Positions 9,400-29,100 of a stretch of DNA of 64,000 bases are shown here, one piece after another. The notes under the pieces are model-generated. The model searched no databases and was not told the origin of the DNA. It worked only from the letters and a program-made list of their open reading frames with translations. The position numbers and the translations under genes were made by a program. The stretch spans positions 1 to 64,000 of the forward strand of contig NZ_JAEQAZ010000024.1 in NCBI RefSeq assembly GCF_016654115.1. The letters are read 5' to 3'. This DNA is from Streptomyces sp. MBT53 (GTDB lineage Bacteria; Actinomycetota; Actinomycetes; Streptomycetales; Streptomycetaceae). Position 1 is the stretch's first letter. The number at the start of each line of letters is the position of its first letter.

Positions 9400-9555
9400 T
9401 CACTCCTCGTTCGCGGAACTGATGTTGCTCAGGCAGGTCCAGAACCCGGACTGCTCCTGGGACCTGCCGAGGCCCTGGAGGTCCAGGATCGAGTGCGCCT
9501 CGACCTCCGGGGACTCCTCGAAGGACTGCTCCAGCGGCTCGGTGCTCTGCGTCAT
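9400..9555 (-). CDS. Class III lanthipeptide precursor LanA1
   Basis: This is a 51-residue peptide with ATG at 9555 and an AGGGAGA ribosome site. The leader is acidic (EPLEQSFEESPEVEA) and contains ILDLQGLG, the LxLQ-type helix motif recognised by class III LanKC enzymes. The predicted core is SGFWTCLSNISSANEE, with one Cys and four to five Ser/Thr residues. The Cys precedes most of the Ser residues (C-L-S-N-I-S-S), unlike SapB or labyrinthopeptin cores where Cys comes last. The C-terminal acidic tail resembles LanA2 and LanA3. It lies directly upstream of LanKC1 on the same strand, so LanKC1 is the likely modifying enzyme. The cleavage site is not known. Confidence 0.85.
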   Translation of the reverse strand: MTQSTEPLEQSFEESPEVEAHSILDLQGLGRSQEQSGFWTCLSNISSANEE

Positions 9556-9601
9556 GGCGATCTCCCTTGTGTCGATCGGTGGTTGGATCCCTGCCTCGCC
9601 G

Positions 9602-9644
9602 ACGCTAGGCGGCACCGGCCTGCCATCGGTTGGCCGCCGGTATG
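9602..9644 (-). promoter_or_regulatory. Candidate activator-dependent promoter of LanA1 (CATACCG box plus TAGCGT)
   Basis: On the minus strand CATACCG (9644-9638) is followed after exactly 30 nt by TAGCGT (9607-9602), a fair Streptomyces -10. No good -35 lies between them, which suggests dependence on an activator. The same box and spacing recur before LanA5, and with 41 nt before LanA2. Confidence 0.4.
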
Positions 9645-9669
9645 GAAACGGCATGCGGTCGGGCCGACT

Positions 9670-12603
9670 TCACCCGGCCATCCGCTGATCGGCGGGCCGC
9701 TCCGCGAGAGCGCTGATCAGCGCCGAGCGCGAACTCACGTCCAGCTTGCGGAAGATACGGGTCAGATGTGCCTCGACGGTCTTCGCCGACAGGAAGAGCA
9801 TCGAGGCGATGTCCCGGTTGGACAGTCCCCGGGACACCAACTGCGAGATACGGAGCTCCTGTTCGGACAGGACGTCATGAGCGTGGCCCGCCAGGCGCGG
9901 GCGGCGGGCGCCGATCTGACGCTGGGCGTTGACGGCGAGCGTGCTCAGCCGACCCGCCCCGTGCGCGTCGGCGATCTGTTTGGCCCGGCCGACCGCCGCC
10001 ACGGCCTCCTCCAGCCGTCCGGCGGCGACCAGCGCCCGGCCGTGCAGGAGCCGCGCCCGGCCCTCGGCGAGAACCAGACCACCGGTGGCGAAGAACTCGG
10101 CGGCGTCGGCGCACAGTTCGGCCGCCGCGCCCGCGTCGTCGCCACGGACGCAGGCCATGGCCAGGGCCGCGTAACCGGACTGCCCCGGAAGGGCGACGGC
10201 CGCCGCCGCCTCGGCTGCCTGCCGCGCCCGGACCGTCGCAGCCTCGGTGTCGCCGCGCGCCATCTCGGCCTGCGCCGCCGTACAGAACCACATGGCCCGC
10301 AGGGTGTGGGTGGTCTCGGAGCGGTCGATTCCCGTGATGGTCCGGATCAGTTCGACACAGTCGCCGGGCCGCCCCTGGTCGAGCCGGACCGAGGCCAGTA
10401 CGGCCGCCGACAGCTCCCACAGCCGACCGTGGTGCTTGGCGGCACGCAGGGCGCGTTCGGCCGCGTCGGCCGCCGCCGCGGGACCGTCGCGCAGCGCGGA
10501 GGCCGCGGCGCGCAGGGTCAGGGCGTAGCCGATCAGGTCCGGCCGGTCGATCAGATGGGCCGTCTCCTCGGCGTCCGCCGCCGAGGCGATCGCGCCCGCG
10601 AGGTCGCCGGTGCCCTGCTGGGCGTAGGACTGGCAGAGCAGCAGATACGGCATCATGTAGCTCTGCCCGGTGCGCCGGGCGACGTGGACGGCGCGGGTCA
10701 TGTGCCGGACCGCGTCGGCGTGGCGCTCGGCGAGGACCTCGGCCCAGCCCAGTTGGCCCACCTCGTCGAGGGAGGTGGCCAGTTCCTCGTCATCCATGAC
10801 GTCGATCGCCGAAGCAGCCTCGGACACATAAGCCGCCATCGGCCCCGTCCGTCCGCTGTACGCGGCGCCCAGGGCGCGGCAGGCCGCGACCGAGGTGAGG
10901 ATCCCGCTGTCGACCGGCGGGGGAGTGAGGGCGAGGACGGTGTCGAGATGCCCGGCCGCCTCCTCGAAGTTCCCCTGCGCCATGCCCACGGTGGCGAGTT
11001 GGAGGCGCAGCGGATTGACCTTGGCCTCGGTCTTCGGCCAGCGGGCCAGTTCGTCCTTGAGCGCCCGCTTGGCAGCCTTGGGGCTGCCGAGGATCCGCTC
11101 GATCACCGACCGCAGCGCCACGACGGGGATGCGCTGATCGAGACGGTCCGCCGGGACGAGGTCCAGGGCCTGGGACAGGGCGTCCCGGCAGGAGGCGAGG
11201 TCGCCGGTCGTACCGCAGGTGCGGGCCAGGCCGAGGAGCATCTCCAGCCGCTGCCGGGCCGCCTCGCCCGAGGGGTTCTGGGGGGAGAGCCGCAGTGCCG
11301 CGCGCAGCCAGGCGGCGGCGGTGGCGGGTGCGGAGCGGGTGGTGAGGGCGGCGGCCTCGGTGAGAACGCGCACGGCTTCGTGGTCGCCCGGCTGCGCCGA
11401 GCGGGCGACGAAGGGCGCGCGCTCCACGGCGCTCGCCCCGCTCCCGCGCAGCGCCTCGTCGGCCCGCGCGTTGGCGCCGAGGAACCAGCCCGGTGGTGTC
11501 TCGCGGGAGACGATCTCCCGGAGCAACGGGTGCCTGAACTGGAGCAGTTGGCGTATTTCGTGGCGCGGGCCGCCGGGTCCGCAGGAGCGGACCAGGTCCA
11601 TTCCCGCGAGGACGTCGAGGGCCTCCAGCGCGGGTCCGTGGCCGAGTCCCGCGACCTGGCCCAGCAGCATCGGGTCGAACGGGTCGCCCAGGACGGCCGC
11701 GGCGCGCAGCGTGGAGAGCTCGTTCCCGGTCAGCGACGCGATCTCGCGGGCCAGCGCCGCCCGTAAGGTGTCCGGCAGATCGGTCTGGCCGTCCGCCGCG
11801 CCGTCGCCGTCCGGAGTGAGTTCGGTGAGGACTTCGAGATAGAGCGGGTTGCCGCCGCTCACCTTGCAGAGCCGGTCGCGACGGGCCGGCGGGTAGGTGG
11901 TGCCGAGCAGACTGCGGCACGCCTGCCGGTCCAGCACCGACAGCGGCAGCCGCTCGACGCGGTAGTCCGCGACGGCGTACCGGAAGGACGCCCGCAGTCG
12001 TGCCGCCGCCTGCCGGGGTCTGAGTCCGCAGGCCAGGAGCAGTGGGGTGCCGGGCGGCTGCCGGAGCAGGTAGTGGAGCAGTTCCAGCGAGCCCTCGTCG
12101 GCCCAGTGCAGATCGTCGAGGCAGAGGAGGATCCCGCGGTCCTGGCCGACCGCGGCCAGCAGCCGGCCCAGCGCGTGGTGCAGCCGGGAGCGGTCCACCT
12201 GGGCGAACCCGTGGCGTCCGGGTCCGGAGCCGCGCGGCTGCACCAGCTCCAGCAGCGCCGCCGTCTCCTCGTCGAGCGGACCGTGCCGGGATTCCGTGAG
12301 GCGGCCGAAGCAGCTCCGGACGGGCCCGGCGAACACCCCGAAGGAGCGCTGCTGTTCGAACTCCGAGGCGCGGCCCGACAGGACCGTCAGCCCCTCCGTC
12401 TCCGCCAGATCGCCCAGTTCGGACAGCAGTCTGGTCTTGCCGAGTCCTGGATCGCCGGTGATCTCCACGACGGTGGAGCGACCGTCCGCGCAGGCCCTGA
12501 CGGCGGACCGTAGTACGGCCATCTCGCCCTCGCGGCCCACCAGTGGCCCCGAGCGGGCCCGGTGGGCCGTCGCGTGTGCCTGGTGCGCGCTCTGCTCGCT
12601 CAT
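9670..12603 (-). CDS. LAL-type LuxR transcriptional regulator 2 of the lanthipeptide island (TTA codon)
   Basis: This is a protein of about 977 residues. The ATG at 12603 is chosen because GAGGAGG precedes it by a few bases. The ATPase carries ITGDPGLGKTRLL (Walker A) and ILLCLDDLHWADE (Walker B). The middle is TPR-like, and the C-terminal HTH is LSEQELRISQLVSRGLSNRD ... FLSAKTVEAHLTRIFRKLDV. An in-frame TTA codon lies at 11766-11764 (in PDTLRAAL), so expression probably depends on bldA. It lies between the GAF/S8 operon and LanA1 and is a likely activator of the RiPP genes. Two 10-bp direct repeats lie upstream. Confidence 0.92.
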   Translation of the reverse strand: MSEQSAHQAHATAHRARSGPLVGREGEMAVLRSAVRACADGRSTVVEITGDPGLGKTRLLSELGDLAETEGLTVLSGRASEFEQQRSFGVFAGPVRSCFGRLTESRHGPLDEETAALLELVQPRGSGPGRHGFAQVDRSRLHHALGRLLAAVGQDRGILLCLDDLHWADEGSLELLHYLLRQPPGTPLLLACGLRPRQAAARLRASFRYAVADYRVERLPLSVLDRQACRSLLGTTYPPARRDRLCKVSGGNPLYLEVLTELTPDGDGAADGQTDLPDTLRAALAREIASLTGNELSTLRAAAVLGDPFDPMLLGQVAGLGHGPALEALDVLAGMDLVRSCGPGGPRHEIRQLLQFRHPLLREIVSRETPPGWFLGANARADEALRGSGASAVERAPFVARSAQPGDHEAVRVLTEAAALTTRSAPATAAAWLRAALRLSPQNPSGEAARQRLEMLLGLARTCGTTGDLASCRDALSQALDLVPADRLDQRIPVVALRSVIERILGSPKAAKRALKDELARWPKTEAKVNPLRLQLATVGMAQGNFEEAAGHLDTVLALTPPPVDSGILTSVAACRALGAAYSGRTGPMAAYVSEAASAIDVMDDEELATSLDEVGQLGWAEVLAERHADAVRHMTRAVHVARRTGQSYMMPYLLLCQSYAQQGTGDLAGAIASAADAEETAHLIDRPDLIGYALTLRAAASALRDGPAAAADAAERALRAAKHHGRLWELSAAVLASVRLDQGRPGDCVELIRTITGIDRSETTHTLRAMWFCTAAQAEMARGDTEAATVRARQAAEAAAAVALPGQSGYAALAMACVRGDDAGAAAELCADAAEFFATGGLVLAEGRARLLHGRALVAAGRLEEAVAAVGRAKQIADAHGAGRLSTLAVNAQRQIGARRPRLAGHAHDVLSEQELRISQLVSRGLSNRDIASMLFLSAKTVEAHLTRIFRKLDVSSRSALISALAERPADQRMAG

Positions 12604-12711
12604 GGGCCTCCTCGGTTCTGGCTGCCGGGCACCGGACCGTCGGGTGAACCCGGTCTCCCTCCGGCCAGAACCGATCCTTGTGCGGAACGTGACCCACGGC
12701 GTCCGCAAAAC

Positions 12712-12769: not shown

Positions 12770-13345
12770 CTAACCGAGCAGGCTCCCCAACTCGCTCAGC
12801 AGCCGTGTCGCCTCCGCGCGACGACGCGACGGCAATCCCAAGTCGTCCTCCTCCATGACGAGTTGCTGCCGTACGGCGAAGCGCAGGGCGGTGGCGGCCT
12901 GCCGGGCGAACAGGGACAGCAGATCGAGTTCGGGCAGGCTGGAGCGGGCCTGCTCGGCGGGGTCGAGCACCTCCAGTACGCCCAGGACCCGGCCGTCGTG
13001 GATCAGCGGGGCCGCCATGAGCGCGTCGGGCACGTACTCGGTGGACTCCGCCAGGCTGCGGTCGAAGGAGGAGTGGGCGGTGAGATCGTCGACCACCATC
13101 GGTTCCCCGGAGACAGCCACCCAGCCGGCGATGCCCCGGCCGGCCGGGAAGCGGCGGCCGATCAGGAAGTCCTGGCCCCGGCCGGACACGGCCTGGAAGA
13201 CCAGTTCCCCGGCCTCCTCCTCCAACAGGAAGACCGAGCTTGCCTGGGCACCGAAGATCGCCCGGGCGACGTCGACGACGGACTGGAGCAGTTCGGACGC
13301 CAGCGGGTCGTGGGACGCGGCGGCGGGTTGCAGGTCGAGGGACAC
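12770..13345 (-). CDS. GAF domain protein
   Basis: This 191-residue protein starts at GTG 13345. Nearly the whole length is one GAF domain: ARAIFGAQASSVFLLEEE, FPAGRGIAGWVAVSGEPMVV and VPDALMAAPLIHDGRVLGVL are hallmark segments. A short helical tail follows. GAF domains bind small molecules such as cyclic nucleotides or sense redox state. There is no output domain, so it would act through a partner. It is the last gene of the leftward operon after the S8 protease (65-bp gap) and the nucleotide cyclase/ATPase. A GAF protein beside a cyclase suggests cyclic-nucleotide sensing, but this is inference. Confidence 0.85.
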   Translation of the reverse strand: MSLDLQPAAASHDPLASELLQSVVDVARAIFGAQASSVFLLEEEAGELVFQAVSGRGQDFLIGRRFPAGRGIAGWVAVSGEPMVVDDLTAHSSFDRSLAESTEYVPDALMAAPLIHDGRVLGVLEVLDPAEQARSSLPELDLLSLFARQAATALRFAVRQQLVMEEDDLGLPSRRRAEATRLLSELGSLLG

Positions 13346-13410
13346 GGCGACACCTTCGCTAGAGATACGGACAGGAGATACGAGGGGCAGTACGGCAAGC
13401 AGCCGGTGGC

Positions 13411-14253
13411 TCAGGGCAGTTCGCCCTCGGCGGTGGGCGTGCGGCGGTCACGGACGTTGGCGGCGGAGGCGTAGAGCGCGCTCTTGAGCTGGAAGGGCGT
13501 CATCCGGGGGCTCGCCGACAGGAGCCGGGCGCACAGGCCGGTGATGTAGGGCGTGGCGAAGCTGTTGCCGGTGGTGCGGATGGTGCTGCCGCCGAGCCAG
13601 CCGACCTCGACGTTCTGGCCGGGTGCGAAGAACTCCACCGGGGGGCGCGGGTTGTACAGATGCAGACCGCTGTCGTCCTCGCCGTGGCTGCCCACCGAGA
13701 TCACCGAGGCGAACCGCCAAGGGAAGCTCTCCACCGGTGAGTTGTGCGCGGCGGCGACGATGACCGACCCGTTGAAGTACGCCTCGTCGGTCAGCGCGTG
13801 CAGATCCTCGGCGAAGCGCGCTCTGGTCGTCGACAGGCTCATGTTGATCAGGTCGAAGCCCTGGCGCACGGCCCAGCGCAGCCCTTCGAGGAGGATGTCC
13901 CCGGTGCCGGAGAACCGTTCGCCCAGCACCCGCACACTGTGCAGTTCGCAGTCCGGCGCGACCTTGCGCACGATGCTCGCGCACGCCGTGCCGTGGCCGC
14001 ACGGGTCGTCGGGCTCGGTCTGTTCGACGCGGAGCCCGTCCGCGTCCTTGACCACCACCCACGAACTGTCCACCGGACCGATGCGGGGATGGCCGCCCTC
14101 GATGCCGGAGTCCACCACGCACACCCGTACGCCGTGACCGGTGGCCCCCGCCAGGGCGGCGGGCGGCGGGGTCTCGCCGGCCGCGACCGGGATGTCGTCG
14201 GGGCGTCTGCCCAGGAGACCCCAGGTCAGGCCCTGGGGCGGTGCTGTCGTCAT
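13411..14253 (-). CDS. S8 (subtilisin-like) serine protease without signal peptide
   Basis: This is a 280-residue protease. The catalytic triad is visible: Asp in VCVVDSGIEGGHP, His in CGHGTACASIV and Ser in GNSFATPYITG. The Asn oxyanion residue is probably in IVAAAHNS. There is no signal peptide and no long propeptide, so it should act in the cytoplasm. The ATG at 14253 overlaps the stop of the cyclase gene (ATGA), giving translational coupling. In RiPP clusters S8 proteases (LanP type) often remove leaders, so leader processing of the lanthipeptides or of the small peptide at 17317-17514 is plausible. A role in a protease-based signalling or defence cascade is the alternative. Confidence 0.9.
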   Translation of the reverse strand: MTTAPPQGLTWGLLGRRPDDIPVAAGETPPPAALAGATGHGVRVCVVDSGIEGGHPRIGPVDSSWVVVKDADGLRVEQTEPDDPCGHGTACASIVRKVAPDCELHSVRVLGERFSGTGDILLEGLRWAVRQGFDLINMSLSTTRARFAEDLHALTDEAYFNGSVIVAAAHNSPVESFPWRFASVISVGSHGEDDSGLHLYNPRPPVEFFAPGQNVEVGWLGGSTIRTTGNSFATPYITGLCARLLSASPRMTPFQLKSALYASAANVRDRRTPTAEGELP

Positions 14254-17200
14254 CGTCGCTCTTTTCCGTTCTCGGGTAGGAGTGCCTCGGCCCATCGCAC
14301 ACCGGGCAGATGACCCTTGGCGGCGAAGACCGCCCGAGCCTGCGCGGCGGCCCGTCCGGCCCGCTCGGGGCGGCCGAGCAGGGCGAGTGCGTGCGCCCGG
14401 TCGAGCAGGGCGCCCCCGCGTACGACGGGCGAGTCGGTCTGTGCGGCGGCGCGGACCGCGCGGGCGGTCAGCCGCAGGGACTCCTCGTGCCGTCCCTCAG
14501 CAGCCGCGACCCGGCCCAACAGGCCGTTGAGCTCGACCGCCTCGGCGTGCGGACACGCCTCCTCACCCTCCATCCGGGCGAGGACACCGGCCGCCGCCGC
14601 CACCTCCCCGCACTCCAGGTGCAGCCGGGCCGACTCCAGTGCCACGCTGTCGCGCAGCGCGGTGACGCCCAGGTCCGCCGCCGCGTCGGCCGCCGTGTCC
14701 AACAGGGCGCGGGCCCGGGTGAGTTGCCCCGCGAGCAGCTCCACCGTCGCACCGAACAGCGGGAGGACGACCCGTGTCTCGGCGTACCCCAGTTCGGCGG
14801 CCGGCCGTGCCGCTTCGGCCAGGCACGCGCGGGCGTCGGTCCACCGGTCCTGGAGCGCCGACAGCACGGCCAGCGGGCAGTTGAGGGTGATCCGCACGGC
14901 CCGCCGTCCGCCGCCGTGCTCGTCGAGGAGTGTGCGGCAGCGCGCCTCGGCCGTCGGTACGGGCACCGGGCCGCGCCACAGCGAGATGCCGGTCGCGCCC
15001 AGGGCGGCGGCCCGCTCCGGCTCGCCGTCGGCGCGGACCGCGTGCGCCAGCCCCCTGGTGAGCCATGCGTCGGCGGCACCGTGCCGGCCCTGGGACTGGT
15101 GGCGCTGGGCGAGCCGCAGACACGCGCGGGCCTGGCCCAACTCGTCCCCGGCTCGCTCGAACACCGCCAGCACGGCCGCCGCGGCCTCGGCGGGAGTCTC
15201 CTCCCGCGGGGCCACGGAAGCCAGCGCGAGCCGGGCGTGCGCGGCCTCCAACGGGTCGGCGGGGGAAGCCAGTACGTCCTTCAGCAGCGCGTGTCCCTCC
15301 GCGGTCCGGCCGAGAGCGGCCCGCACCTCACCGAGCCGGCGGACCGCCGCCGCCCCTCCGGGTTCCCCGGGCCGGTGCAGGGCCGCCGACCGGGTCAGCA
15401 GGTCGTCGGCCCAGGGCAGGTCGGACCGGGCCAGCGCCAGCGCCCCGGCCCGCCCGAGGGCTTCGGCGGCCCCCGCGCGCAGCGACTCCGCACCGGCGTC
15501 GAGCCCGCCCAGCTCGCCCCGGTAGCCGTAGGCCCGCTCCAGATGGCCACCGACGGCCGCCGGCCCGGCGGACCGCACCGACGGCAGTACGGCGGCCCTC
15601 TCGTGCCCCTCGGCGCGGGCGCGCTTGGACATGGAGGCGTACGTCACCTCCTGCACCAGCCCGCTGCTGAACCGGAACGAGGCCCGCGGCCCCGGCTCCA
15701 CCAGCCGTCGCCCGCTCAGCCGCAGCAGCGCCGACCGGACCTCCTCACCTGTGCCGCGGGGCCCGGTCAGCTCGTCCGCGGTGAACTCCCGGCCGATCAC
15801 CGACGCCTGGTCCAGCACCCCGCGCTCACGCGGCTCCAGCGCGTCGATCCGGGCGCCGAGCAACGCCTGTACGGTCGGCGGGAGTTCGTCCTCGGAGCCG
15901 GTGTCCAGGGCGGCGGCCAGCAGCTGTTCGAGGTGCAGCGGATTGCCGTCGGCCCGCTCCAGCAGCCGGCTCGGTGCCACGTCCCGGTGGGCGCTCACCT
16001 CGGTCAGCCCCGCGGCCAGCAGCGCGGACTCGTCGTACGACAGACCCGCCAGCGCCAGCACCGAGGACGCGGCCAAGTCACCTCTCGCGTCCAGGAGTTC
16101 GGGTCGGGCCAGCAGGACCACCAGGACCGCGTCCCGGTCCAGTTCGCGGACGAGCCGGTCCACCACGTCCAGCAGCAGCGGGCCGGCCCAGTGGCAGTCG
16201 TCGATCGCCAGTACCACCGGGCCCCGCGTGGACAGCGCGCCCAGGACGCCGACCAGGGCCGCGCAGGTCTCCGCCACGGTCGGGTTCGGTGTCCCGTCGA
16301 GGAGCAGACCGGCGGAGAGCACCGCCAGGGCCTCGGCGACGCCGTGCGGCGCGGGCGCGGTCGCCAGGACCGACGTCACCGCGTCGGCCAGCGGGCCCAG
16401 GCTGCCCCGGTCGCCGTAGGGGCGGCACCGTCCGGCGCCGCTGAGCGGTGCGCGGGAGTGCAGCCACTCGCGCAGCAGGCGGGTCTTGCCGAGGCCGGCC
16501 TCGCCGTGGACCAGGACGCGGCGGGCGCCCCGGCCGTCCGTGACCGCCGCCAACGAGGCGTCCAGCGCGGCCAGTTCGGGACCCCGGCCGACGAAGCGCA
16601 CGTCGAAGCGGCGCGTCAGCTCCGGGTCGTCCTCGCCGAGCCCCAACAGCCGGTACGCGGCGACGGGTTCGGCCTTGCCCTTGAGGGAGAGCGGCCCGAC
16701 GGGTTCCGCGCGCACCGCGGCGCCGGCCGAACGAAGGGTGTCGGGGCCGATGAGGATCCGGCCCGGTCCCGCGTTCTGCTCCAGCCGCGCCGCCACGTTG
16801 ACGGTCTCGCCCGAGACCAGCGCGTGGCGCGCCGAGGAGTCCGAACCCGACACCACCTGACCGGTGTTGATGCCGATCCGCACCTCCAGGCGTACCCCGA
16901 GGGCGGTGTCGAGTTCGGTGTTGAGGCCGTCGAGCGCGGCCAGCATGCCCAGCGCGGCGGCGAGCGCGCGCCGGGCGTCGTCCTCGTGCACGACGGGAAC
17001 GCCGAACACCGCCATCACCGCGTCCCCGATGAACTTCTCCACCGTCCCGCCGTGGAACTCGATCTGGCGTCTCATCAGGTCGAAGTAGCGCAGGGTCACC
17101 GAGCGCAGCGTCTCCGGGTCGAGGCCGCCGGACAGCGCGGTGGAGCCCACCAGATCGCAGAAGAGCACGGTGACGACCTTGCGCGACTCGGTCGCCTCGG

Positions 17201-17288: not shown

Positions 17289-17316
17289 GGTCCAGCTCCC
17301 TTCGCGGGCCCCGTTC

Positions 17317-19965: not shown

Positions 19966-20172
19966 CCGGTCCGTCAGCGCCGACCGGCCCCCGGGGCCAG
20001 GGCGCGAAGCCCTGCCCCCGTCATGGAAACCAGCACCTGCGCCGGCATGGCCGGCCTCAGCGACCCCCGCCGACCGAGGCCCGACCCCGGGGCGGCCGCG
20101 CCGATCCGCTCGGCGCGACCACCCCGGTCCGTCCCGTCCCACACCCGGTGGACCACAACCTGGAAGGGCCTC

Positions 20173-21453
20173 ATGAACGGCTCGCAACCCGGCGCCGCCG
20201 CCGGCGGTGGCACGGTCAAGCTCAGCGGAATCAGGGACTTCCGGTTCCTGTGGATCAGCGGCCTGCTGGCCGGCCTGGGCTCGCAGATGTCGGCGATCGC
20301 GCTGCCCCTGCTGGTGCTGCGCCAGACCGGCTCGCCCGTGCAGGCCGGGGCGGTGGGCACGGTCTCGGTCGGTGCCCTGCTCGTCACCATGCTGCCCGGG
20401 GGCGCCCTGGCCGACACGGTCGAGCGGCGCCGGCTGATGCGCCTGTGCGACATCGGCAGCACCCTCGTGGTCGGCGGCCTGGCGCTGGCCGTCCTGCTCG
20501 GCCGCACCCCCTTCGTCCTCGTCCTGCTGGTGGCAGCGGTCGGCGCGGTCATCAACAGCTTCTACGGACCTGCCGCGTTGGGCCTGCTGCGCGCGGTGGT
20601 CTCCCGTGAGCAACTCGGCGTCGCCTCGTCCCGGATGCAGGCCAGAGCCGCCGCCGCGCGTCTGGTCGGCCCGATGGCGGGCGGTGCGCTGTACGCGGTG
20701 CATCCCGCGCTTCCGTTCGCCGGCGAGGCCGTCTTCCTGCTGCTGTCCACCACCTGTCTCGCCTTCGTCCGTACCCGGTCGGCCCCCGACCCCGCGGCCC
20801 GATCCGCCTTCTCCAGAACGGAGTTCGCGGCCGGCGTCTCCTTCCTGTGGCGGCGTCCCTATCTGCGGACGGTGCTGCTGGTCTTCGGTCTGGGCGTGAA
20901 CGGTGCGTTCGGCGCGATGATGTTCGTCGCGCTGGCGGTCACCTCGCACAGCGGCAGCTCCGGCCTGGGCAGCGGCACCGTCGTCTCGCTGACCGCCGTC
21001 GGCTCGCTCCTGGGCGCGCTGCTCGCCCCGCGTGTCCCCTCGCGGTGGCGCTCCGCGACACTGATCGCCCTGACCTGCTGGGTGTGCGGCATCGATGCCC
21101 TATTGCTGACAGTCAGTCAGAATCCTTTGTACGTAGGCGCGTTGTGTGCCGCCTGTGTCGCGATGGCCGCCGTCGCCGGCATCGGCTTCCTGACCTCCCT
21201 GCTGGAGTCGGCCCCGCAGCACATGGTCGGCCGGGTGCAGAGCGCCGCCGGATTCATCTCCTCGCTCGTCCAGCCGCTCGGCCCGCTCGCCGGAGGCACC
21301 CTGCTCGCCGCCCACGGTGCGCGAACGGCCTATACCGCGCTGGGAGCGGTGTTCCTGGTCTGCGCGCTCGTCCTGACCTGTGCGCCGTCGGTCCGCCGGA
21401 CCGACGCCGTACCGGTCGCCGCCGCCCCGACCGAGGCGCTGAGCGCCGAGTAG
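20173..21453 (+). CDS. MFS transporter, probable lanthipeptide exporter
   Basis: This 426-residue integral membrane protein has about 12 hydrophobic segments. ATG 20173 is chosen for the GGAAGG site upstream. The N-terminal pattern FRFLWISGLLAGLGSQMSAI, followed by MLPGGALADTVERRRLMRLC in loop 2-3, is typical of the MFS_3/enterobactin-exporter-like family common in RiPP and siderophore clusters. It lies between the LanA2/LanA3 pair and LanKC2. Class III lanthipeptides are more often exported by ABC transporters, so an MFS exporter here is slightly unusual. A self-resistance role is equally possible. Confidence 0.9.
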   Translation: MNGSQPGAAAGGGTVKLSGIRDFRFLWISGLLAGLGSQMSAIALPLLVLRQTGSPVQAGAVGTVSVGALLVTMLPGGALADTVERRRLMRLCDIGSTLVVGGLALAVLLGRTPFVLVLLVAAVGAVINSFYGPAALGLLRAVVSREQLGVASSRMQARAAAARLVGPMAGGALYAVHPALPFAGEAVFLLLSTTCLAFVRTRSAPDPAARSAFSRTEFAAGVSFLWRRPYLRTVLLVFGLGVNGAFGAMMFVALAVTSHSGSSGLGSGTVVSLTAVGSLLGALLAPRVPSRWRSATLIALTCWVCGIDALLLTVSQNPLYVGALCAACVAMAAVAGIGFLTSLLESAPQHMVGRVQSAAGFISSLVQPLGPLAGGTLLAAHGARTAYTALGAVFLVCALVLTCAPSVRRTDAVPVAAAPTEALSAE

Positions 21454-21589: not shown

Positions 21590-24133
21590 ATGGCCGAAGC
21601 ACGCCAGTCCCTGACCTACTGCGCCGCCGACCGCGACTTCTTCGAGACGCCCGCCCGGCTCCCGGACGACGGCACCCGCTACCCGCTCGCGTGCGGCGAG
21701 GCGCCCGAGGGCTGGAGCCGTGCCACGCGGGGGCTGTGGAGCGTACTGACCCCGGGCGGCGTCCGGTTGCCCGAGCAGGGCTGGAAGATCCATCTGTCGG
21801 CGACCCCGCGCGTGGCGGAGTTGACGCTGGACCGGGCCGCCGCCGTGCTGCTGCGCCGCCGCGTCCCCTTCAAGTTCCTGCGCAGCCGCGAGGCACTGAT
21901 GCTGATGGTCGACAAGAACATGGCACGCGGCAGCAGCGGCAAGTTCATCACCGTGTACCCCGCCGACGAGACCGAGTTGGCAGCGGTCCTGGCCGAACTC
22001 CAATCCGCCGTGGACGGGTTGCCGGGCCCGCACATCCTCAGCGACCTGCGGATCGGCCGGGGCCCGGTGCACGTCCGCTACGGGGCGTTCGTGGAACGCT
22101 GGTGCGCCGACGAGGACGGGCGGCAGGTCCCCGCGCTGCGCGACCCCTCCGGCACCCTCGTGCCGGACGTACGCTCGCCGGTCTTCACCCTGCCCGACTG
22201 GGTGACCCCGCCGCCGTTCCTCGACGAGCCGCTCGCGGCCCTGCGCGCGGCGGGCTTCGGCGACTTCCCCTACCGGGTCGTCAAAGCGGTGCACTTCACC
22301 AACGCCGGTGGCATCTACCTCGCCCGCCACCGGGTCGGCGGGCAGACCGTGGTGCTGCGCGAGGCCCGGCCCTTCGCCGGACTCGACGGCGCCGCCGCCG
22401 ACGGTGTCGAGCGGCTGCACCGCGAGTACCGCGCGCTGACGGCCCTGAGCGGACTGGACTGCGTCCCCGAGGTGTACGGCCTGCACACCGCGTGGGAACA
22501 CCACTTCCTCGCCGAGGAGTACATCGAGGGCCAGACCCTGCTGGACGCGGTGCTGAACCGCTATCCCGCCGTCGGCCGCGACACCGGCGAGGAGGCGACG
22601 CGCGCCTACGCCCGCTGGGCCGGCACCGTCATCGACAACCTCGGCAGGGCGCTGGACGCCGTCCACGAACGCGGGCTGCGCTTCCGCGACGTGCACCCCC
22701 TCAACGTCATCGTGCGGCCCGACGACTCCGTGGCCCTCGTGGACTTCGAGTACGCCGCGGACCTCGACGCGTCGGACGGACTGCGCGTCGGAGCCCGCGG
22801 CTTCGCGGCCCCGGCCGGTACGGCACCCCGTGACGTGGACGCCTACGGTCTCTGGGCCACCTGGCTGTTCACGCTGTTGCCCATGATGGAGATGGCGGAC
22901 TTCGCCCCGGACAAGGCGCCCCTGCTCGAAGCGGTGGCCAGGGAACGCTTCGGCCTGTCACCCACCGAGGGCCCGCGCCGCCCCGACACGGCGCAAGCGC
23001 GGCCGGCCGCCCTCGCGGCGACCGCCGCGCACGCCGACGACGTGTTCGCTCCCGCCGAGTGGCCCGCGCTGCGCGACCGGCTCGCCGAGGGCATCCACGC
23101 CTGTGCCACCCCCGACCGGGAGGACCGTCTGTTCCCCGCCGACTGGGAGGTCTTCCACACCGGCGGCCACACCCTCGCCCACGGCGCCGCCGGTGTGCTC
23201 CTGGCCCTGCACCGGGCGGGCGCCGCCGTGCCCGACACCTATGTCGACTGGCTGATCGCGGCGGCCCGGCGGGCCCGCCCCGAAGCGGGCGGCGGACTGT
23301 ACGACGGGCTGTACGGCGTGGCCGTCGTGCTCGACGAACTCGGCCGCCGCGAGGCGGCGTCGGAGGTCCTCGCGCGGGCGCGGGCAGCCGGCGACCCGCC
23401 CCGGGCCGGCCTCTTCGGCGGCCTGGCCGGAATCGCCCTCACGCTGTGCCACTTCGCCGTACGCACCGGGGACACGGCCCTGCTCGACGAGGCCGCGCAC
23501 ATCGCGGACCGGCTGGAGTCGCTACGGCGCGAAAGCTCGGCCCCCGGGCTCCGCCTGCCGGACCACGCGGGCCTCATGCACGGCCTCGGCGGCCCGGCGC
23601 TGCTCCAGCTCCGTCTTCATCACGTGACCGGCGAGGAGCGCTATCTGGACGCGGCACGGGCCGCTCTGGACTGGGACATCCGCCGGTGCGTCACGATGGC
23701 CGACGGGACCGTGCAGGCCAAGCAGGGCCACCGGCATCTGCCCTACCTGGACGAAGGCAGCACCGGAATCGCCCTCGTGGCACGCGAGTACCTCACCCGC
23801 GCCGACGATCCCGCGCTCGCGGCCTTCGTCTCCGCCGCGACACCGTGCGGCGCGGCCCCCTTCGTGCGCGAGCCGGGCCTGTTCCACGGCCGGGCGGGCC
23901 TGGTCGCCGCGTTCGCCCTGCTCGCCCCGGCGGAGAAGGAGGAGCAACTGCTCGCCGCGGTACGGAACTTCTCCTGGCACGCGCTGCGCAAGGGCGACGG
24001 CATGTACGTACCCGGCGCCGGTCTGCTGCGGCTGTCCGCCGACCTCGCGACCGGCTCGGCGGGCGTACTCCTCGCCCTGCACACGGTGTTCGAGGGCAAG
24101 GGCGACCTGGGCACGCTGCTGCCGGTGACCTGA
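21590..24133 (+). CDS. Class III lanthionine synthetase LanKC2
   Basis: This is an 847-residue paralogue of LanKC1 with the same domain order. The lyase region has FITVYPADE and HILSDLRIGRGPVHVRYGAF. The kinase region has HFTNAGGIYLARH, RFRDVHPLNVIV and ALVDFEYAADL. The cyclase region has GGHTLAHGAAGVLLALHRAG, GLFGGLAGIALT, LFHGRAGLVA and LATGSAGVLLALH. No Cys/Cys-His zinc site is present, which supports class III. ATG 21590 follows GGGAGA. It is the last gene of the LanA2-LanA3-MFS-LanKC2 unit and converges on the SARP gene with a 28-bp gap. Near identity with LanKC1 across long blocks implies local duplication. Confidence 0.93.
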   Translation: MAEARQSLTYCAADRDFFETPARLPDDGTRYPLACGEAPEGWSRATRGLWSVLTPGGVRLPEQGWKIHLSATPRVAELTLDRAAAVLLRRRVPFKFLRSREALMLMVDKNMARGSSGKFITVYPADETELAAVLAELQSAVDGLPGPHILSDLRIGRGPVHVRYGAFVERWCADEDGRQVPALRDPSGTLVPDVRSPVFTLPDWVTPPPFLDEPLAALRAAGFGDFPYRVVKAVHFTNAGGIYLARHRVGGQTVVLREARPFAGLDGAAADGVERLHREYRALTALSGLDCVPEVYGLHTAWEHHFLAEEYIEGQTLLDAVLNRYPAVGRDTGEEATRAYARWAGTVIDNLGRALDAVHERGLRFRDVHPLNVIVRPDDSVALVDFEYAADLDASDGLRVGARGFAAPAGTAPRDVDAYGLWATWLFTLLPMMEMADFAPDKAPLLEAVARERFGLSPTEGPRRPDTAQARPAALAATAAHADDVFAPAEWPALRDRLAEGIHACATPDREDRLFPADWEVFHTGGHTLAHGAAGVLLALHRAGAAVPDTYVDWLIAAARRARPEAGGGLYDGLYGVAVVLDELGRREAASEVLARARAAGDPPRAGLFGGLAGIALTLCHFAVRTGDTALLDEAAHIADRLESLRRESSAPGLRLPDHAGLMHGLGGPALLQLRLHHVTGEERYLDAARAALDWDIRRCVTMADGTVQAKQGHRHLPYLDEGSTGIALVAREYLTRADDPALAAFVSAATPCGAAPFVREPGLFHGRAGLVAAFALLAPAEKEEQLLAAVRNFSWHALRKGDGMYVPGAGLLRLSADLATGSAGVLLALHTVFEGKGDLGTLLPVT

Positions 24134-24161: not shown

Positions 24162-25970
24162 TCAGACACCGGCCGCCTCCCGGGCGTAGAGATGCGTCAG
24201 ATACGGCAGCGAGTACGCGGCGGTGTGCGCGGTGACCTCGCTGTCGGGCAGGACCACCACCCCCGCCTCGATCATCAACTCCAACTCCCGCTGCGCGCCC
24301 CGCCGGTCGCCGCCCAGCGCCGTGGCGGCCTCCGCCGCGGTGAACCAGCCGGACAGCGGCAGTCGCGCGAGGCGGCGCAGCGCGCCCTGGTGCCGGTCGG
24401 CCAACTGCGCCCATTCGTCGGCCACATGGGAGCGCACCTGTAGATCGCCGACGGCCAGTTCGTCCAGGAGCGCCTCGGGATCGGCGAGGCGCTGCGCGTA
24501 CTCGGCGAGCGGCAGATGCTGGAGCACGGCCAGTTTGAGGCCCGCCGCCCGTACCGTCAGCGGCAGCGCGCCGCACGCGGCCACCACGCGCGTGGCCGCC
24601 GCCCGGTCGCACAGCATGCGGCCGGTGCCGATCAGCCTGCCCAGCAGCTCCAGGGCTTCGGCCGTCGACAGCGGCGGGACCCGCACCCGGTGGGCCGGGG
24701 CCAGCCCCGCCAGTTGGGTACGGGCCGTGACGAGGACCGTGCTCCGGCCGGGGCCGGGCAGCAGCGGCCTGACCGCGGCCTCGTGGGGCGCGTCGTCCAG
24801 CACCACGAGCACCTTGCGGTCGGCCAGCCAGTCCCGCCACCGCGCGGCGGCCACATCCGGGTCGGTGGGCGGGGCCGCACGGAGACCGGTGTACGCCAGC
24901 AGTTCCGTGGTCACCGAACCCAACGACCGGGCCCTGCCGTCCTGTTGCCTCAGTCCTACGAAGATCCGGCCGCCCGGGAACTCGCCCTCCAGCCGGTGCG
25001 CGGCACGCACGGCGAGCGTGGTCTTGCCCACGCCGGCCGGGCCGACCAGGACGTGGGCGGCGCCCCTGACCCCGGTGGCGGTCTCCAGCAACTGGGCCAG
25101 AGTGTCCCCGCGACCGGTGAAATCCGGTATGTCGGCGGGCAGTCCGACGGGTACGGCAGGGCGGGCTGCCGGGGTGGGAGCGGCTCCCTCGTCGGCGAGG
25201 ACCGTGTGGTAGAGCGACTCCAGGGCCGGGCTCGGGGACAGCCCCAGCTCCCGTGACAGATGCTGCCGCAGCTCGTCGTAGGCGGCCATCGCCTCCCCCC
25301 GGCGGCCCGATCGGTGCAGGGCCGTCATCTGGGCTGCGCGCAGCCGCTCCCGCAGCGGATGCTCGTCCACCAGCTCACCGACCGCGTCCGCGACCTCACC
25401 GGGACGGCCCGCCGCCAGCGAGGCCTCGGCCCAGTCCTCGCAGACACCCAGGTGCCGGAGGGTCAGCCGGTCGGCCTCCGCCTCCAGGACCTCGGAGCAG
25501 CCGAGGCCGGGCAGCGGCGGCCCGTTCCACAGTGTCCGGGCCTCGTGCAGCAGCCGTGCCGCGCGTTCCGCGTCGCCGTCGGCGAGGGCCTCTCGCCCGG
25601 CCCGGGCCAGCGCGAGAAAGTCGAGGGAGTCCAGCTCGGGGGCGTCCACCCGGAGCACGTAGCCGCCGCAGCGCAGGGAGATCCGGTCGCCCATGCCCGC
25701 CCGGGCCAGCGTCTTGCGGAGCGCCGAGACATACAGCTGGAGGTTCTTGCGTGCCGTGCGCGGCGGATCGTCGTCCCACACCGCCTTGGTCAACAACGCG
25801 ACCGAGACAGGGGAGTTGGCGTGGCACAGCAGCGCTGCCAGGACGACGCGCTGCTTGAGCGGGCCGAGCGGGAGGGCGTGCCCGTCCGCCTCGGCGGAGA
25901 GCGGCCCGAGGACGGAGAACCGCAGCGGGGAGGTCACGGTGGTCGGGTTCGGGGGGGTGGTGTACACCAT
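24162..25970 (-). CDS. SARP/AfsR-like transcriptional regulator with NB-ARC ATPase
   Basis: This is a 602-residue protein; ATG 25970 is chosen for the AGGA site upstream. An OmpR-like DNA-binding domain (LRFSVLGPLSAEADGHALPL ... LYVSALRKTL) is followed by the BTAD helical domain (LDSLDFLALARAGREALADG). Next comes an NB-ARC ATPase with Walker A LVGPAGVGKTTLAV and Walker B VLVVLDDAPHE, ending without the TPR array seen in longer AfsR proteins. SARPs activate antibiotic and RiPP genes by binding heptameric repeats. Its position between LanKC2 and LanA4/LanKC3 makes it a good candidate activator of either unit. No cognate heptamer repeat was identified. Confidence 0.92.
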   Translation of the reverse strand: MVYTTPPNPTTVTSPLRFSVLGPLSAEADGHALPLGPLKQRVVLAALLCHANSPVSVALLTKAVWDDDPPRTARKNLQLYVSALRKTLARAGMGDRISLRCGGYVLRVDAPELDSLDFLALARAGREALADGDAERAARLLHEARTLWNGPPLPGLGCSEVLEAEADRLTLRHLGVCEDWAEASLAAGRPGEVADAVGELVDEHPLRERLRAAQMTALHRSGRRGEAMAAYDELRQHLSRELGLSPSPALESLYHTVLADEGAAPTPAARPAVPVGLPADIPDFTGRGDTLAQLLETATGVRGAAHVLVGPAGVGKTTLAVRAAHRLEGEFPGGRIFVGLRQQDGRARSLGSVTTELLAYTGLRAAPPTDPDVAAARWRDWLADRKVLVVLDDAPHEAAVRPLLPGPGRSTVLVTARTQLAGLAPAHRVRVPPLSTAEALELLGRLIGTGRMLCDRAAATRVVAACGALPLTVRAAGLKLAVLQHLPLAEYAQRLADPEALLDELAVGDLQVRSHVADEWAQLADRHQGALRRLARLPLSGWFTAAEAATALGGDRRGAQRELELMIEAGVVVLPDSEVTAHTAAYSLPYLTHLYAREAAGV

Positions 25971-25995
25971 GCGTTCCTGTCTCACGGGACGTGGG

Positions 25996-26038
25996 ACCGG
26001 CTCCGGGCCGCGCAGGAGCTGCGCGGCCCGGAGCCGGT
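25996..26038. terminator. Perfect 20-bp palindrome with 3-nt loop upstream of the SARP gene
   Basis: Arms 25996-26015 and 26019-26038 are perfect reverse complements around GAG. It lies between the LanKC3-LanA4 operon end and the SARP start at 25970. It is probably a second terminator that insulates the SARP, though an extreme regulatory hairpin in the SARP leader RNA is possible. Confidence 0.6.
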
Positions 26039-26110
26039 TCGGGGCCGTGGACGACTGTGCCGCGATCCACGGTCCCCAGCATCGGGGAAAACCCGACACC
26101 CCACTGGGGA

Positions 26111-26148: not shown

Positions 26149-26256
26149 TCACGCCGTGTGGATGCTCCAGTCGCTCCAACTGGCGCTGATGCAGAAGGCG
26201 GCGGTCTCGGTCTCCGTGTCGGTGTCCAGGGTCTGCAAGGCGAGGATCTGGGTCAT
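26149..26256 (-). CDS. Class III lanthipeptide precursor LanA4
   Basis: This is a 35-residue peptide with ATG 26256 and an AGGAGA ribosome site. The leader is very short: MTQILALQTLDTDTETET, with ILALQ as the LanKC recognition motif almost at the N-terminus. The core is AAFCISASWSDWSIHTA, with one Cys followed by Ile-Ser and several Ser/Thr plus two Trp. It resembles LanA5 in the leader (ILALQxLDT). It sits 59 nt downstream of LanKC3, an unusual place because precursors normally precede the synthetase, and is followed by a terminator. Probably co-transcribed with LanKC3. Confidence 0.82.
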   Translation of the reverse strand: MTQILALQTLDTDTETETAAFCISASWSDWSIHTA

Positions 26257-26271: not shown

Positions 26272-26295
26272 CGATGGGTTCGATGGGTTCGATGG
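26272..26295. repeat. 9-bp tandem repeat between LanKC3 and LanA4
   Basis: CGATGGGTT occurs twice in tandem, followed by a partial third copy (CGATGG), in the 59-nt spacer before LanA4. It may affect LanA4 translation or be a slippage product. Confidence 0.5.
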
Positions 26296-26315
26296 TGAAG
26301 AGAGGGTCGTACGGA

Positions 26316-28931
26316 CTACCCACCCGGCGGACGACACCTGGTCGGTCCGGCGGGCGCTGTGGATCCGGCGGCGGGGCCCAGGGTGAACACCTCGTCACCC
26401 GGGCCGCGCAGGACCCGGCGGAGTGCCAGCAGCACCCCGGCCGCGCCGCTCGACAGATCGGCACTGAACCGCTGTGCCCCCGACCCGAGGAAGCGGACCC
26501 CCCGGGTGTACGGCACGGCGTACTTGAGCAGACCGGTGGCGGCCCGCATCGCGGCCCCGCGAGCGTCGGCACCGCCGTCGGTGTCGGCCCGGTCGGCGAG
26601 GAACCAGGCCAGACCGGCGAGCCCCTGATACAGCCCGGCCTCGTTCGTCCAGCACGACACGGATGTCCCCGCCGCCACCAACGGAAGGGCCGCCGCGAGG
26701 CGTTCGTCGGCGCAGGAGGCCGCGTACCGGGTGAGAACCGTACCCACGCCGGCCGCTCCGACGGCGAGATAGGGCATGGCTCGTTTCAGGACCGCGTTGT
26801 CGGCGAAGGACAGGGTGCCGTCGTCCATGGGGATCGCACGGTCCAACTCCTCGTGCAGGAGCCGCAGTCCGGCCGCACGGTAGCGGTCCTCGCCGGTCTC
26901 GCCGGCCAAGTGGTGCAGGAAGAGGGCCAGTCCGGAGCGGCCGTGGAACAGTCCGCGGGCATCGTCGCCGCCGAGCGCGGGCACGAGGTCCGAGATGGCG
27001 AGGAGGGCGTCCCCTGCGGCGGCGGCCCGCTCCAGATGCCGCTCGTCGGCGGTTCGCCGGTGCAGGGCGAGCCAGGTCAGGCCGACGCCGGCCCGGCCGC
27101 CCGCCAGGGTGGCGCAGGACGCGGTGAGAGGGTGGCCGTCGGCGTGCCGGGCGAGGTCGACCGCTTCGTCCAACCGGCCGAGCGAGGCCAGGACGCGGGC
27201 GATCCCCGCGGTGCCCGCGTCGAGTCCCGGGGGCAGTTCGTCACGACGGGTCAGTGCGTCGTGACGCAGCCGCTTCTCGACCGCCTCCGGGACGGGCGCT
27301 TCGGCCTGGTGCAGGGCGTGCACCACGCCCGCGGTGCCGTACGCCACGCACACGGTGTTGGCGCGGAACGCCTGCGGTGAGGGCGGGAAGACCCAGTCCG
27401 GCCGGCCGGGGTCGGCACTCTCCAGCAGCCCCGCCACCACGTCGTCGGCGAGCCGGGCGAGACAGCCCTGCGGATCCGCCGCCACCTCGGCCGGAGAGAA
27501 CGGTGCCGGGCACGTCGCGCTGTCTGTGGGGTAGTTGGATACGGCCCGCGCCCACAGGTCGGCCGGGGGCGCGGCATCCGCCAGATCGTGCCGGAGCAAC
27601 GTGAGCCCGGCGGGGGCCAGTTCGGCCGTCTCGTGGAAGGGCGCGAGAAAGGCGAGGGCGAGCGCGGCCGTGCCGTACCGGTCCGTCAGCAGCGGGTCGT
27701 CACTCGCTTCCCGCAGCGTGGCGGGTGGCGTGAAGCCCTTGGTGCCCATGGGTGCCGGAGGCCCGTCCAGCGCCGAGACCGCCTCGAAGTCGACGAGCCG
27801 GGCCGTGCCCGATGGCGTGACGACGACATTGCCGAGACTGACGTCCCCGAACCGGTGCCCCAGGGCGTGCAGTTGGTCCAGGGCCGCGTCCACGTCCCCC
27901 AGGAGTCCGCGGCACACCGCGAAGAAATCCGCGCAGCCGGCCGCCGTACGGCCGTGCCGCATGAGCGGGGACGTACGGCTCAGCCAGGTGCGCAGGGAAT
28001 CCCCCTCGACGTACTCGGTGACGAGGAAGTCGTGCTCCCACTCGGTGAAGTGCTCCAGCGGCTGCGGGCAGACGCCGGGAGCCGCCGCGTGCACGGCGGT
28101 CAGGACCTCGTACTCGTGCCGCAGCCGTTCCTGCGCGCTGGTGCCGTCCCAGATGAGGCCGTTGTGGGCACGCGCCTCCTTGATGAACACACGGCGGCCG
28201 GTGCGGGTGTCCCGCCCCTGGTACGTCCCTCCGGCGTTGCTCGGCTGCAACGCGGCGAGGATCTCGTAGTCCCGGATGAGGATCGCTCCCGCGTGCGGCA
28301 CGGGCTCCTCCGCGACGAAAGGGTCGGTGATCCCGGTGGGCAGCACGAAGAACGGCCGCCGCTCGTCCGGCACATCACGCCCCGAGGCGTCCCGGACCAG
28401 CCCCTGCCGGGTGCCGTCCGGCAGCAGCTCGCTCCGGGTGCCGAACGCCCCGTAGCGGTAGTGGACGGTCTTCGAGTCGCCGAAGCGGCGGTCCGAGAGG
28501 ATGTAGGGTCCGTCCTCGTCGCGCAGCGCGTCGGAGAGCAGACCGAGCAGCCGTCGCGCGGTGTCGGTGTCGGGCGGGTAGATCGCGCAGAACTTGCCCG
28601 CCTGGGCGCGGTGGGCGTGCTTGTGGTGCACGACGAGGAAGAAGGTCCGGGCGGACAGGTGCTTGAACGGCACGCCTTCCGCGAAGCAGACCCGCGCCAC
28701 CCGGTCGAGGACCTGCTGGGCCCGGTCGAGGCGCGCCGACACATGGATCTTCCAGCCCTGTTCGGGACGGCGGGCGTCCGGCCGGCTCCACACCGTCCAG
28801 ACGTCCTGCCGTACATGCCGCCAGCCGGGGGCCGGACGGCTCGGGGTGAAGCGCGGGCCGGTGTCGGCCGTCGTCGCGAGCGGAGCGTAGTACTCCGCGT
28901 CCGCGAAGGTCTCCGTGAAGGCGTCGAGCAC
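26316..28931 (-). CDS. Class III lanthionine synthetase LanKC3 (divergent subtype)
   Basis: This is an 871-residue LanKC starting at GTG 28931. The lyase region has KFCAIYPPDTDTA and GPYILSDRRFGDSKTVHYRY. The kinase region has LQPSNAGGTYQGRDTRTGR, RRVFIKEARAH, HRFGDVSLGNVVV and ARLVDFEAVSAL. The cyclase-like part has LAGGRAGVGLTWLALH, GLFHGRSGLALF, GLYQGLAGLAW and SGAAGVLLALRRV. Zinc ligands are absent, so it is class III. It differs clearly from LanKC1 and LanKC2 and pairs with precursors that have the ILALQ leader. It is flanked by LanA5 upstream (37-nt gap) and LanA4 downstream. Confidence 0.92.
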   Translation of the reverse strand: MLDAFTETFADAEYYAPLATTADTGPRFTPSRPAPGWRHVRQDVWTVWSRPDARRPEQGWKIHVSARLDRAQQVLDRVARVCFAEGVPFKHLSARTFFLVVHHKHAHRAQAGKFCAIYPPDTDTARRLLGLLSDALRDEDGPYILSDRRFGDSKTVHYRYGAFGTRSELLPDGTRQGLVRDASGRDVPDERRPFFVLPTGITDPFVAEEPVPHAGAILIRDYEILAALQPSNAGGTYQGRDTRTGRRVFIKEARAHNGLIWDGTSAQERLRHEYEVLTAVHAAAPGVCPQPLEHFTEWEHDFLVTEYVEGDSLRTWLSRTSPLMRHGRTAAGCADFFAVCRGLLGDVDAALDQLHALGHRFGDVSLGNVVVTPSGTARLVDFEAVSALDGPPAPMGTKGFTPPATLREASDDPLLTDRYGTAALALAFLAPFHETAELAPAGLTLLRHDLADAAPPADLWARAVSNYPTDSATCPAPFSPAEVAADPQGCLARLADDVVAGLLESADPGRPDWVFPPSPQAFRANTVCVAYGTAGVVHALHQAEAPVPEAVEKRLRHDALTRRDELPPGLDAGTAGIARVLASLGRLDEAVDLARHADGHPLTASCATLAGGRAGVGLTWLALHRRTADERHLERAAAAGDALLAISDLVPALGGDDARGLFHGRSGLALFLHHLAGETGEDRYRAAGLRLLHEELDRAIPMDDGTLSFADNAVLKRAMPYLAVGAAGVGTVLTRYAASCADERLAAALPLVAAGTSVSCWTNEAGLYQGLAGLAWFLADRADTDGGADARGAAMRAATGLLKYAVPYTRGVRFLGSGAQRFSADLSSGAAGVLLALRRVLRGPGDEVFTLGPAAGSTAPAGPTRCRPPGG

Positions 28932-28968
28932 GGGATCTCTCCTCAGGGCCTGTGGCGGGAGCCGAGGG

Positions 28969-29100
28969 TCACAGGGTGCGGACGGTGATCGTGCTCCCGG
29001 AGACGCTGAAGCAGGGGAACGCGCCGGCCTCCTGCTCCGTGTCCAGTTCCTGAAGGGCGAGAATCCGGGCCATCTCGGCCGGCTGGTGTGCCTCGGTCAT
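28969..29100 (-). CDS. Class III lanthipeptide precursor LanA5
   Basis: This is a 43-residue peptide from ATG 29100; ATG at 29073 (MARILALQ) is an alternative start that would align exactly with LanA4. The leader motif is ILALQELDTE and the core is AFPCFSVSGSTITVRTL, with a single Cys at residue 30 and six Ser/Thr after it. The only Thr before the Cys is Thr21, inside the leader motif. If a thioether forms, it must therefore use a residue on the C-terminal side of the Cys. It is the first gene of the LanA5-LanKC3-LanA4 unit, with a CATACCG-type promoter upstream. Confidence 0.83.
   Translation of the reverse strand: MTEAHQPAEMARILALQELDTEQEAGAFPCFSVSGSTITVRTL

Follow-up and report, generated by a model that had tools for sequence, protein, structure and literature searches.

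Does the cysteine of a class III lanthipeptide have to lie on the C-terminal side of the serines with which it forms a ring? This question is raised by a 64,000-nucleotide stretch of Streptomyces sp. MBT53 (contig NZ_JAEQAZ010000024.1; hereafter the window, whose coordinates are used throughout), in which five small precursor genes, A1 to A5, lie close to three genes for LanKC enzymes, LanKC1 to LanKC3 (KC1 to KC3). In the canonical labionin, Cys adds from the C-terminal side to the second dehydroalanine (Dha) of an SxxS motif, and the enolate then attacks the first (bonds as described for noursin in PMC10206099, enolate step as in PMC10604976). In the five window precursors, the order is turned around. 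Each translated open reading frame (ORF) has a single Cys followed by a hydrophobic residue and Ser, just as a first-pass annotation of this DNA had described, and the canonical core pattern [ST]xx[ST]x2-5C is found in none of the five. The reading favored here, at a probability of roughly 55%, is that A1 to A5 and their families are class III substrates in which the ring would run from an N-terminal Cys to a C-terminal Dha. The genes, their conservation, and the phylogeny of the enzymes can be read from the DNA, and each chemical step is an inference.

The five precursors belong to two families. Precursors A1 (9400-9555, minus strand; core ..TCLSNISSANEE, leader PEVEAHSILDLQ), A2 (19580-19744, plus strand; core ..ACISTVSSIEER), and A3 (19780-19911, plus strand; core ..SCVSLASTVVEER) carry their Cys in a CxSxxS motif and represent family alpha, whereas A4 (26149-26256, minus strand; ..FCISASWSDWSIHTA) and A5 (28969-29100, minus strand; ..PCFSVSGSTITVRTL) have CxSxxxS instead and represent family beta. 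The true start of A5 may be at 29073, where an internal ATG is favored by the homologues. The annotation had assigned these peptides class III-type leaders and LanKC partners, and both hold up: an LxLQ-type leader motif is present in all five (with PGLQ as the variant in A2), and all three LanKCs are full-length and score above the cut-off of NCBIfam model NF038151. Scanning the window for LxLQ-type ORFs returns the five precursors and one spurious ORF at 33825. None of the eight peptides tested scores above cut-off with Pfam family models, and the class III lanthipeptide model NF038154 (NCBIfam, cut-off 22) reports only A4 (24.1 bits), with another beta peptide at 21.2 and A1 at 15.1. The acidic tail said to be shared by A1 to A3 is not general among the homologues, one example of which ends in STVSLVLG.

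The arrangement recurs in homologues from other genomes of the window's bacterial family. A hidden Markov model (HMM) of all five precursors was run on 200 genomes of that family, and separate HMMs for alpha (20 rows) and beta (16 rows), trained on part of the same homologue sequences, were run on 394 family genomes and 296 class genomes. At E 0.01, alpha is matched in 47 of the 394 family genomes and 3 of the 296 class genomes and beta in 18 and 6, respectively; outside the window's genus, the class search gives weak matches for beta (E >0.001) and none for alpha. The fetched stretches hold 54 distinct ORFs that match alpha and 24 that match beta (E 1e-5). The C-hydrophobic-Ser element is found in 43 of the former, the other 11 being canonical SxxSxxxC (6) or GSCSSC-type (5) peptides, and in 22 of the latter, the other 2 having no Cys. 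Among homologues chosen in this way, a Ser five residues after the Cys (Ser+5) is present in 43/43 alpha peptides and a Ser six residues after it (Ser+6) in 22/22 beta peptides, which argues that the Cys-first layout is more than chance; Ser+2 is part of the selection filter and is therefore no independent result. There is only one Cys in 43/43 alpha and 21/22 beta peptides, and the upstream Ser/Thr residues are unconserved and scattered from -1 to -14. The Cys-first core, which the annotation had set apart from the usual SxxSxxxC, is thus a conserved trait. On average, canonical cores (118, a set into which at least a trimmed beta duplicate and a spurious ORF have slipped) have 4.7 Ser/Thr before the first Cys and 0.5 after the last, compared to 1.4 and 3.2 in 35 alpha cores and 1.6 and 4.3 in 22 beta cores. 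At the level of codons, A1 and its homologue in genome G030 have the same 12-residue core, and their last 12 codons differ by 4 synonymous and 0 nonsynonymous changes; overall, the proportion of synonymous changes (pS) is 0.38 and that of nonsynonymous changes (pN) 0.20. CxSxxS was considered as a diagnostic motif in its own right and rejected, since it also occurs in 21/118 canonical cores, mostly where one labionin motif of a tandem adjoins the next. At locus L171 (G469:C1028, 1077-1680), three tandem Cys-free ORFs have beta-like leaders (ILALQGLE/D).

The enzymes tell a parallel story. KC1 (6768-9335, minus strand; NF038151 842.5 bits, cut-off 575) is the likely partner of A1, which lies just upstream of it. 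KC2 (21590-24133, plus strand; 922 bits), which has homologues among solved LanKC structures, is the likely partner of A2 and A3, which lie upstream of an MFS transporter gene and KC2. KC3 (26316-28931, minus strand; 738.6 bits), a homologue of ThurKC, is flanked by A5 and A4. From these positions, the system begins to the left of 9400, so the span of 9400-29100 given by the annotation encloses all five ORFs and leaves out LanKC1. The Pfam domains RamC_N and LANC_like are above cut-off in all three enzymes, and Pkinase is above cut-off in KC1 and just below in KC2 and KC3. KC1 and KC2 are 62% identical, and KC3 is 35% identical to KC1.

For the phylogeny, 174 LanKC frames were gathered from loci around LanKCs and precursor loci and typed by their neighboring precursors, which were found for all but 27 of the 164 frames used (nine frames shorter than 700 amino acids and one duplicate, L195, were excluded). 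Because alpha and beta matches and high-scoring LanKCs are overrepresented among these loci, the tree should not be taken as a census. Upstream Ser/Thr/Cys spacing had tripped the regular expression for canonical cores in three loci, which were relabeled by hand after the first tree (L048_11852 and L169 to alpha, L170 to beta), and L257 had been set to canonical beforehand because a spurious ORF tripped the beta expression. In the FastTree phylogeny of the 164, the alpha enzymes group in a single clade (support 97, or 99 once the broken-frame L058 is removed), and the beta enzymes group in a second one (support 100); in an IQ-TREE mixture-model tree of 58 hand-chosen rows (15 alpha, 7 beta, 36 canonical), each clade has an SH-aLRT of 100. 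The alpha LanKCs adjoin SapB-type enzymes, the beta LanKCs are nested in a clade of canonical enzymes beside L252 and L256 (support 96), and enzymes with canonical SxxSxxxC substrates separate the two. A search for loci related to that of KC2 yielded two relatives (43-45%), each next to canonical cores. A single Cys-first clade was rejected, as forcing it lowers the log-likelihood by 390 units (AU test, p 3.97e-8). The single group first proposed for the five precursors therefore gives way to two families whose partner LanKCs lie in two clades. With the hand-corrected labels, Cys-first needs two changes on the tree. This means that the trait changed at least twice, gain being indistinguishable from loss on an unrooted tree. 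Reversed cyclization may have arisen twice, once to give a mirrored labionin (CxSxxS) and once to give either a reversed lanthionine or an enlarged labionin (CxSxxxS), and in both lineages most members would have gained Arg or Gln at a single site in the active-site loop of the cyclase; the chances of this fuller account are somewhat below even. Loci L254, L255, and L274 each contain two side-by-side LanKC-like frames.

The cyclase-loop position in question is column 622 in KC2 numbering. It is occupied by Arg or Gln in 44/46 Cys-first LanKCs (alpha, Arg in 25/32 and Gln in 5/32; beta, Arg in 14/14) compared to 0/88 canonical ones, and by Arg in 3/30 other enzymes. The window's own KC2 has Leu there, and the column, picked by scanning all columns, ranks fourth by the score used. 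By our own reading of the offset in an alignment of KC3 with ThurKC, it falls three residues past ThurKC Arg610. The R610A variant of ThurKC gave no labionin, and the peptide was lost as well (PMC10604976), so the role of this loop is not settled by what that paper reports of the variant. As an enzyme signature of Cys-first LanKCs, column 622 is a lead, not a result. Elsewhere in the cyclase domain, Zn ligands are missing, as in other class III systems: the positions of NisC Cys330/His331 read F-R in KC1, F-H in KC2, and Y-Q in KC3, so that the Zn-ligand Cys is absent from all three and a His is kept in KC2.

How might such a ring be closed? Judging from homology, the LxLQ leader would bring the precursor to its LanKC, whose kinase and lyase domains would convert Ser+2 to Dha, along with Ser+5 in alpha or Ser+6 in beta. 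The single Cys would then add to a downstream Dha. Alpha keeps SxxS, so the simplest route would be an attack of the Cys on Dha+5, followed by an attack of the enolate on Dha+2 to give a mirrored labionin, or the reaction may stop at lanthionine. The mirrored labionin would take up roughly half of the likelihood given to reversed cyclization. Four residues lie between the Cys and Ser+5, within the normal range of two to five, so the distance would suit a thiol coming from the other side. Beta has no SxxS at invariant positions, and its SxxxS spacing favors a plain reversed lanthionine. LanM enzymes of the ProcM clade close rings from Cys toward the C-terminus (PMC13060382), so closure in this direction is chemically feasible for a related cyclase fold. 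At alpha loci, leader removal would fall to an S8 protease and export of the product to the MFS protein, and a radical SAM enzyme together with a heme-oxygenase-like (HDO) protein may further modify most alpha peptides.

Several points weigh against reversed closure. We know of no precedent for a labionin-forming enolate started from an N-terminal Cys. All five window precursors have Ser/Thr upstream of the Cys, at non-canonical spacing. In A5, this is Thr21 alone, directly after the LQ motif, besides Thr2; the annotation had named Thr21 as the sole Thr before the Cys. The canonical pattern [ST]xx[ST]x2-5C lies upstream in 4/43 alpha and 3/22 beta homologues, and canonical closure would be possible in those. 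Pooled pN/pS is 0.63 (alpha) and 0.54 (beta) in the leaders and 1.13 and 1.20 in the cores. The core values are not below 1, since residues that lie between the invariant ones are variable, and the codons thus give no support for selection there. Finally, the codons of the conserved Ser are almost all AGC and lend little independent support.

Of the other explanations, the one that fares best, although an unlikely one, is that the peptides are dehydrated by enzymes that have lost cyclization and that the Cys stays free or forms disulfide dimers. Class III-type precursors without Cys are found near other LanKCs (contig C155 of the window's genome; L246/L247), so dehydration alone may suffice, and two of the three other enzymes with Arg at column 622 (L012, L247) have candidate precursors with no Cys. 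Against this, the Cys and its spacing to two Ser never vary in either of two families, whose enzymes form separate clades. Slightly less likely still is an ordinary lanthionine, in which the Cys would close on an upstream Ser/Thr outside any SxxS labionin motif. A Ser/Thr at -3 or further is available for this in 24/43 alpha and 20/22 beta peptides and in all five window precursors (Thr21 being the only one in A5), but these positions are unconserved, and between LQ+3 and the Cys there is none in 19/43 alpha and 2/22 beta peptides. The claim that the thioether must run the other way is thus forced by the sequence in those 19 and 2; for the rest, A1 to A5 included, it is a matter of judgment.

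It is also improbable that some other enzyme, for example the radical SAM and HDO pair, acts on the Cys. Relatives of both proteins are present at 26/32 alpha loci, and L143 and L144, which have the pair and no LanKC, carry short Cys peptides with a VEAH/VVAH leader. On the other hand, in the stretches fetched, both are missing from the same six alpha loci (L049, L057, L061, L062, L162, and L169, of which L162 is a 4.6 kb contig), where the core is CFSLISYV; the Cys is retained in these six and so is not there only for the pair, which was likewise not found at 10/14 beta loci (some stretches end at contig ends). Thioether cross-links between two peptides (A2 with A3, A4 with A5) are very improbable: precursors are paired in the window and tandem in several relatives, but many loci have a single precursor, and no precedent is known to us.

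A further comparison in favor of reversed closure comes from relatives with the Cys on the canonical side. In the window, the genes shared by alpha loci are those for a GAF-domain protein (12770-13345, minus strand; PF01590), the S8 subtilase that is the candidate leader protease (13411-14295, minus strand; PF00082), a protein with adenylate cyclase and AAA domains (14250-17288, minus strand; PF00211, PF13191), the HDO protein (17511-18209, minus strand; PF14518 on the 17514-18653 frame; conserved His/Glu), the radical SAM enzyme (18206-19477, minus strand; PF04055; CxxxCxxC intact, with conserved Cys), the MFS transporter between A3 and KC2 (20023-21453, plus strand; PF07690), and a SARP/AfsR-like regulator (24162-26099, minus strand; assigned by domain matches). 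Scored at identity thresholds of 45-55%, relatives of the MFS protein are found at all 32 alpha loci (at least 45%), of the cyclase-AAA protein at 31, and of the S8, GAF, and SARP proteins at 30 each. Canonical cores, too, are accompanied by most of this cassette and by the same E-V-E-A-H leader motif: at eight such loci, there are relatives of the radical SAM (7), SARP (7), HDO (6), cyclase-AAA (6), S8 (5), and GAF (4) proteins and no alpha-type MFS protein. Canonical cores with an alpha-like leader and cassette include DELISTVSLGEC (L145) and GSTVSLAACA (L133), and the LanKCs are 46-48% identical to KC3. The alpha leader and cassette therefore occur with more than one LanKC lineage. Where leader and cassette are shared, canonical relatives read ISTVSLGEC and alpha CVSTVSLVLG; in alpha GNCVSTVSLVLG (L054-L056), the STVSL block is kept and the Cys lies two residues before it instead of after. 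STVSL is also found in SapB-type cores (e.g., L172) and is thus a common block, so it is the leader and cassette that tie alpha to these canonical relatives.

Some further observations concern the cassette. Its members (12770-19477 in the window; L133, L137, L138, L141-L146) and the shared E-V-E-A-H motif stand beside CxSxxS cores, SxxSxxxC cores, and peptides whose stretch contains no LanKC. Cores of the CSSC..S.C kind have the radical SAM/HDO pair at 1/5 loci. One-Cys peptides with VEAH/VVAH leaders, IICGVYDKEVQA, GWCGVHQEKVN, and MDCKIFVEL, lie near radical SAM and HDO genes (L143/L144, ~9.6-10.4 kb; L046, 5690-6764) and have few Ser/Thr after the leader; the L143 and L144 stretches contain no LanKC, and a search of the complete L143 genome (G025) found none at E 1e-100. 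These peptides are possible substrates of the pair. At L257 (1717-2949), six tandem precursors carry the LQ motif first, with VEAH, VQAH, or VAAH directly before the core in 5/6, where it could serve as a cleavage or recognition site. A search for the letters of the EVEAH motif in the open-licence literature gave no relevant title among the matches listed.

The window also has a LuxR-family (LAL) regulator (9670-12708, minus strand; domain match) and a second LuxR-family regulator (3921-6755, plus strand), relatives of which adjoin the beta module in G019 and G030. The window's genome has five LanKCs above cut-off, and the two outside the window have other candidate precursors: a Cys-free class III-type precursor about 3.5 kb upstream of the fourth LanKC (L012, 2489-2683, contig C155) and one ending in SSLSSTCCRNPA on contig C188 (L013). 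A Protein Data Bank (PDB) sequence search found no match at E 0.001 for the radical SAM enzyme; the HDO protein matched a TENA/THI-4-like chain at E 5.7e-5 and, more weakly, a chain of TetR type at E 0.039. A plasmid search returned 44 records, every one below 60% identity.

The reversed order was not first seen in this window. A computational survey (R Soc Open Sci 2024, PMC11251773) describes a subfamily C of six Streptomyces peptides with CxSxxS as possible “reverse labionin” substrates, in clusters with a LanM, a LanKC, and a Cys-free peptide, and its authors state that none of their predictions are validated. Both subfamily C and alpha have a single Cys, CxSxxS, a Streptomyces host, and a LanKC in the cluster, but the window's genome has no match to the LanM domain (PF13575). 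That domain is found in 14/20 genomes searched, and in four of the window's genus (G194, G024, G188, and G166), it lies 6.7-7.6 kb from the alpha LanKC. Alpha thus very probably includes subfamily C, a judgment based on this proximity. Three relatives have small ORFs in common near their LanM; these ORFs carry no VEAH leader, and one of them is Cys-free and Ser/Thr-rich. Beta is not named in what was seen of the survey and may be among its 46 unclassified single-Cys peptides; its main text, as far as seen, does not map the Cys-first trait on an enzyme tree. A search of open-licence PMC papers found “reverse labionin” or CxSxxS only in that survey, and the open-licence LanKC literature since 2022, in the parts seen, presents no Cys-first class III product, although subscription journals may differ. 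Searches of open-licence PMC papers brought up no record of the beta family as such, the double origin, or same-leader relatives with a canonical-side Cys. The alpha motif is thus already in print, and what may be new here is the beta family, the double origin, and the same-leader canonical relatives.

Known systems share parts of this arrangement. Class III lanthipeptides of the SapB, labyrinthopeptin, and erythreapeptin type have the LxLQ leader and LanKC in common with both families and the SxxS block in common with alpha; they differ in that the alpha Cys precedes the block, with none after it. Among class II peptides of the ProcM clade (prochlorosins, nostolysamides), rings from an N-terminal Cys to a Dha or dehydrobutyrine (Dhb) partner are reported, but their LanM is Zn-dependent with three Cys ligands and has an unrelated dehydratase, and labionin is not mentioned in the parts of that report seen (PMC13060382). 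Noursin and its LanKC-Hbt resemble the present case in combining a LanKC subgroup, altered cyclase chemistry, and a single-Cys core, and differ in making a canonical labionin and a His-butyrine bridge (PMC10206099).

What dictates labionin formation in LanKC enzymes has been named an open question (PMC10604976). Two Cys-first lineages beside canonical enzymes, along with relatives that share the leader and cassette, make ring direction addressable by swapping enzymes and peptides, and the same-leader relatives with a canonical-side Cys are natural pairs for finding what sets that direction. The mirrored labionin, if true, would be a new topology of peptide cross-link.

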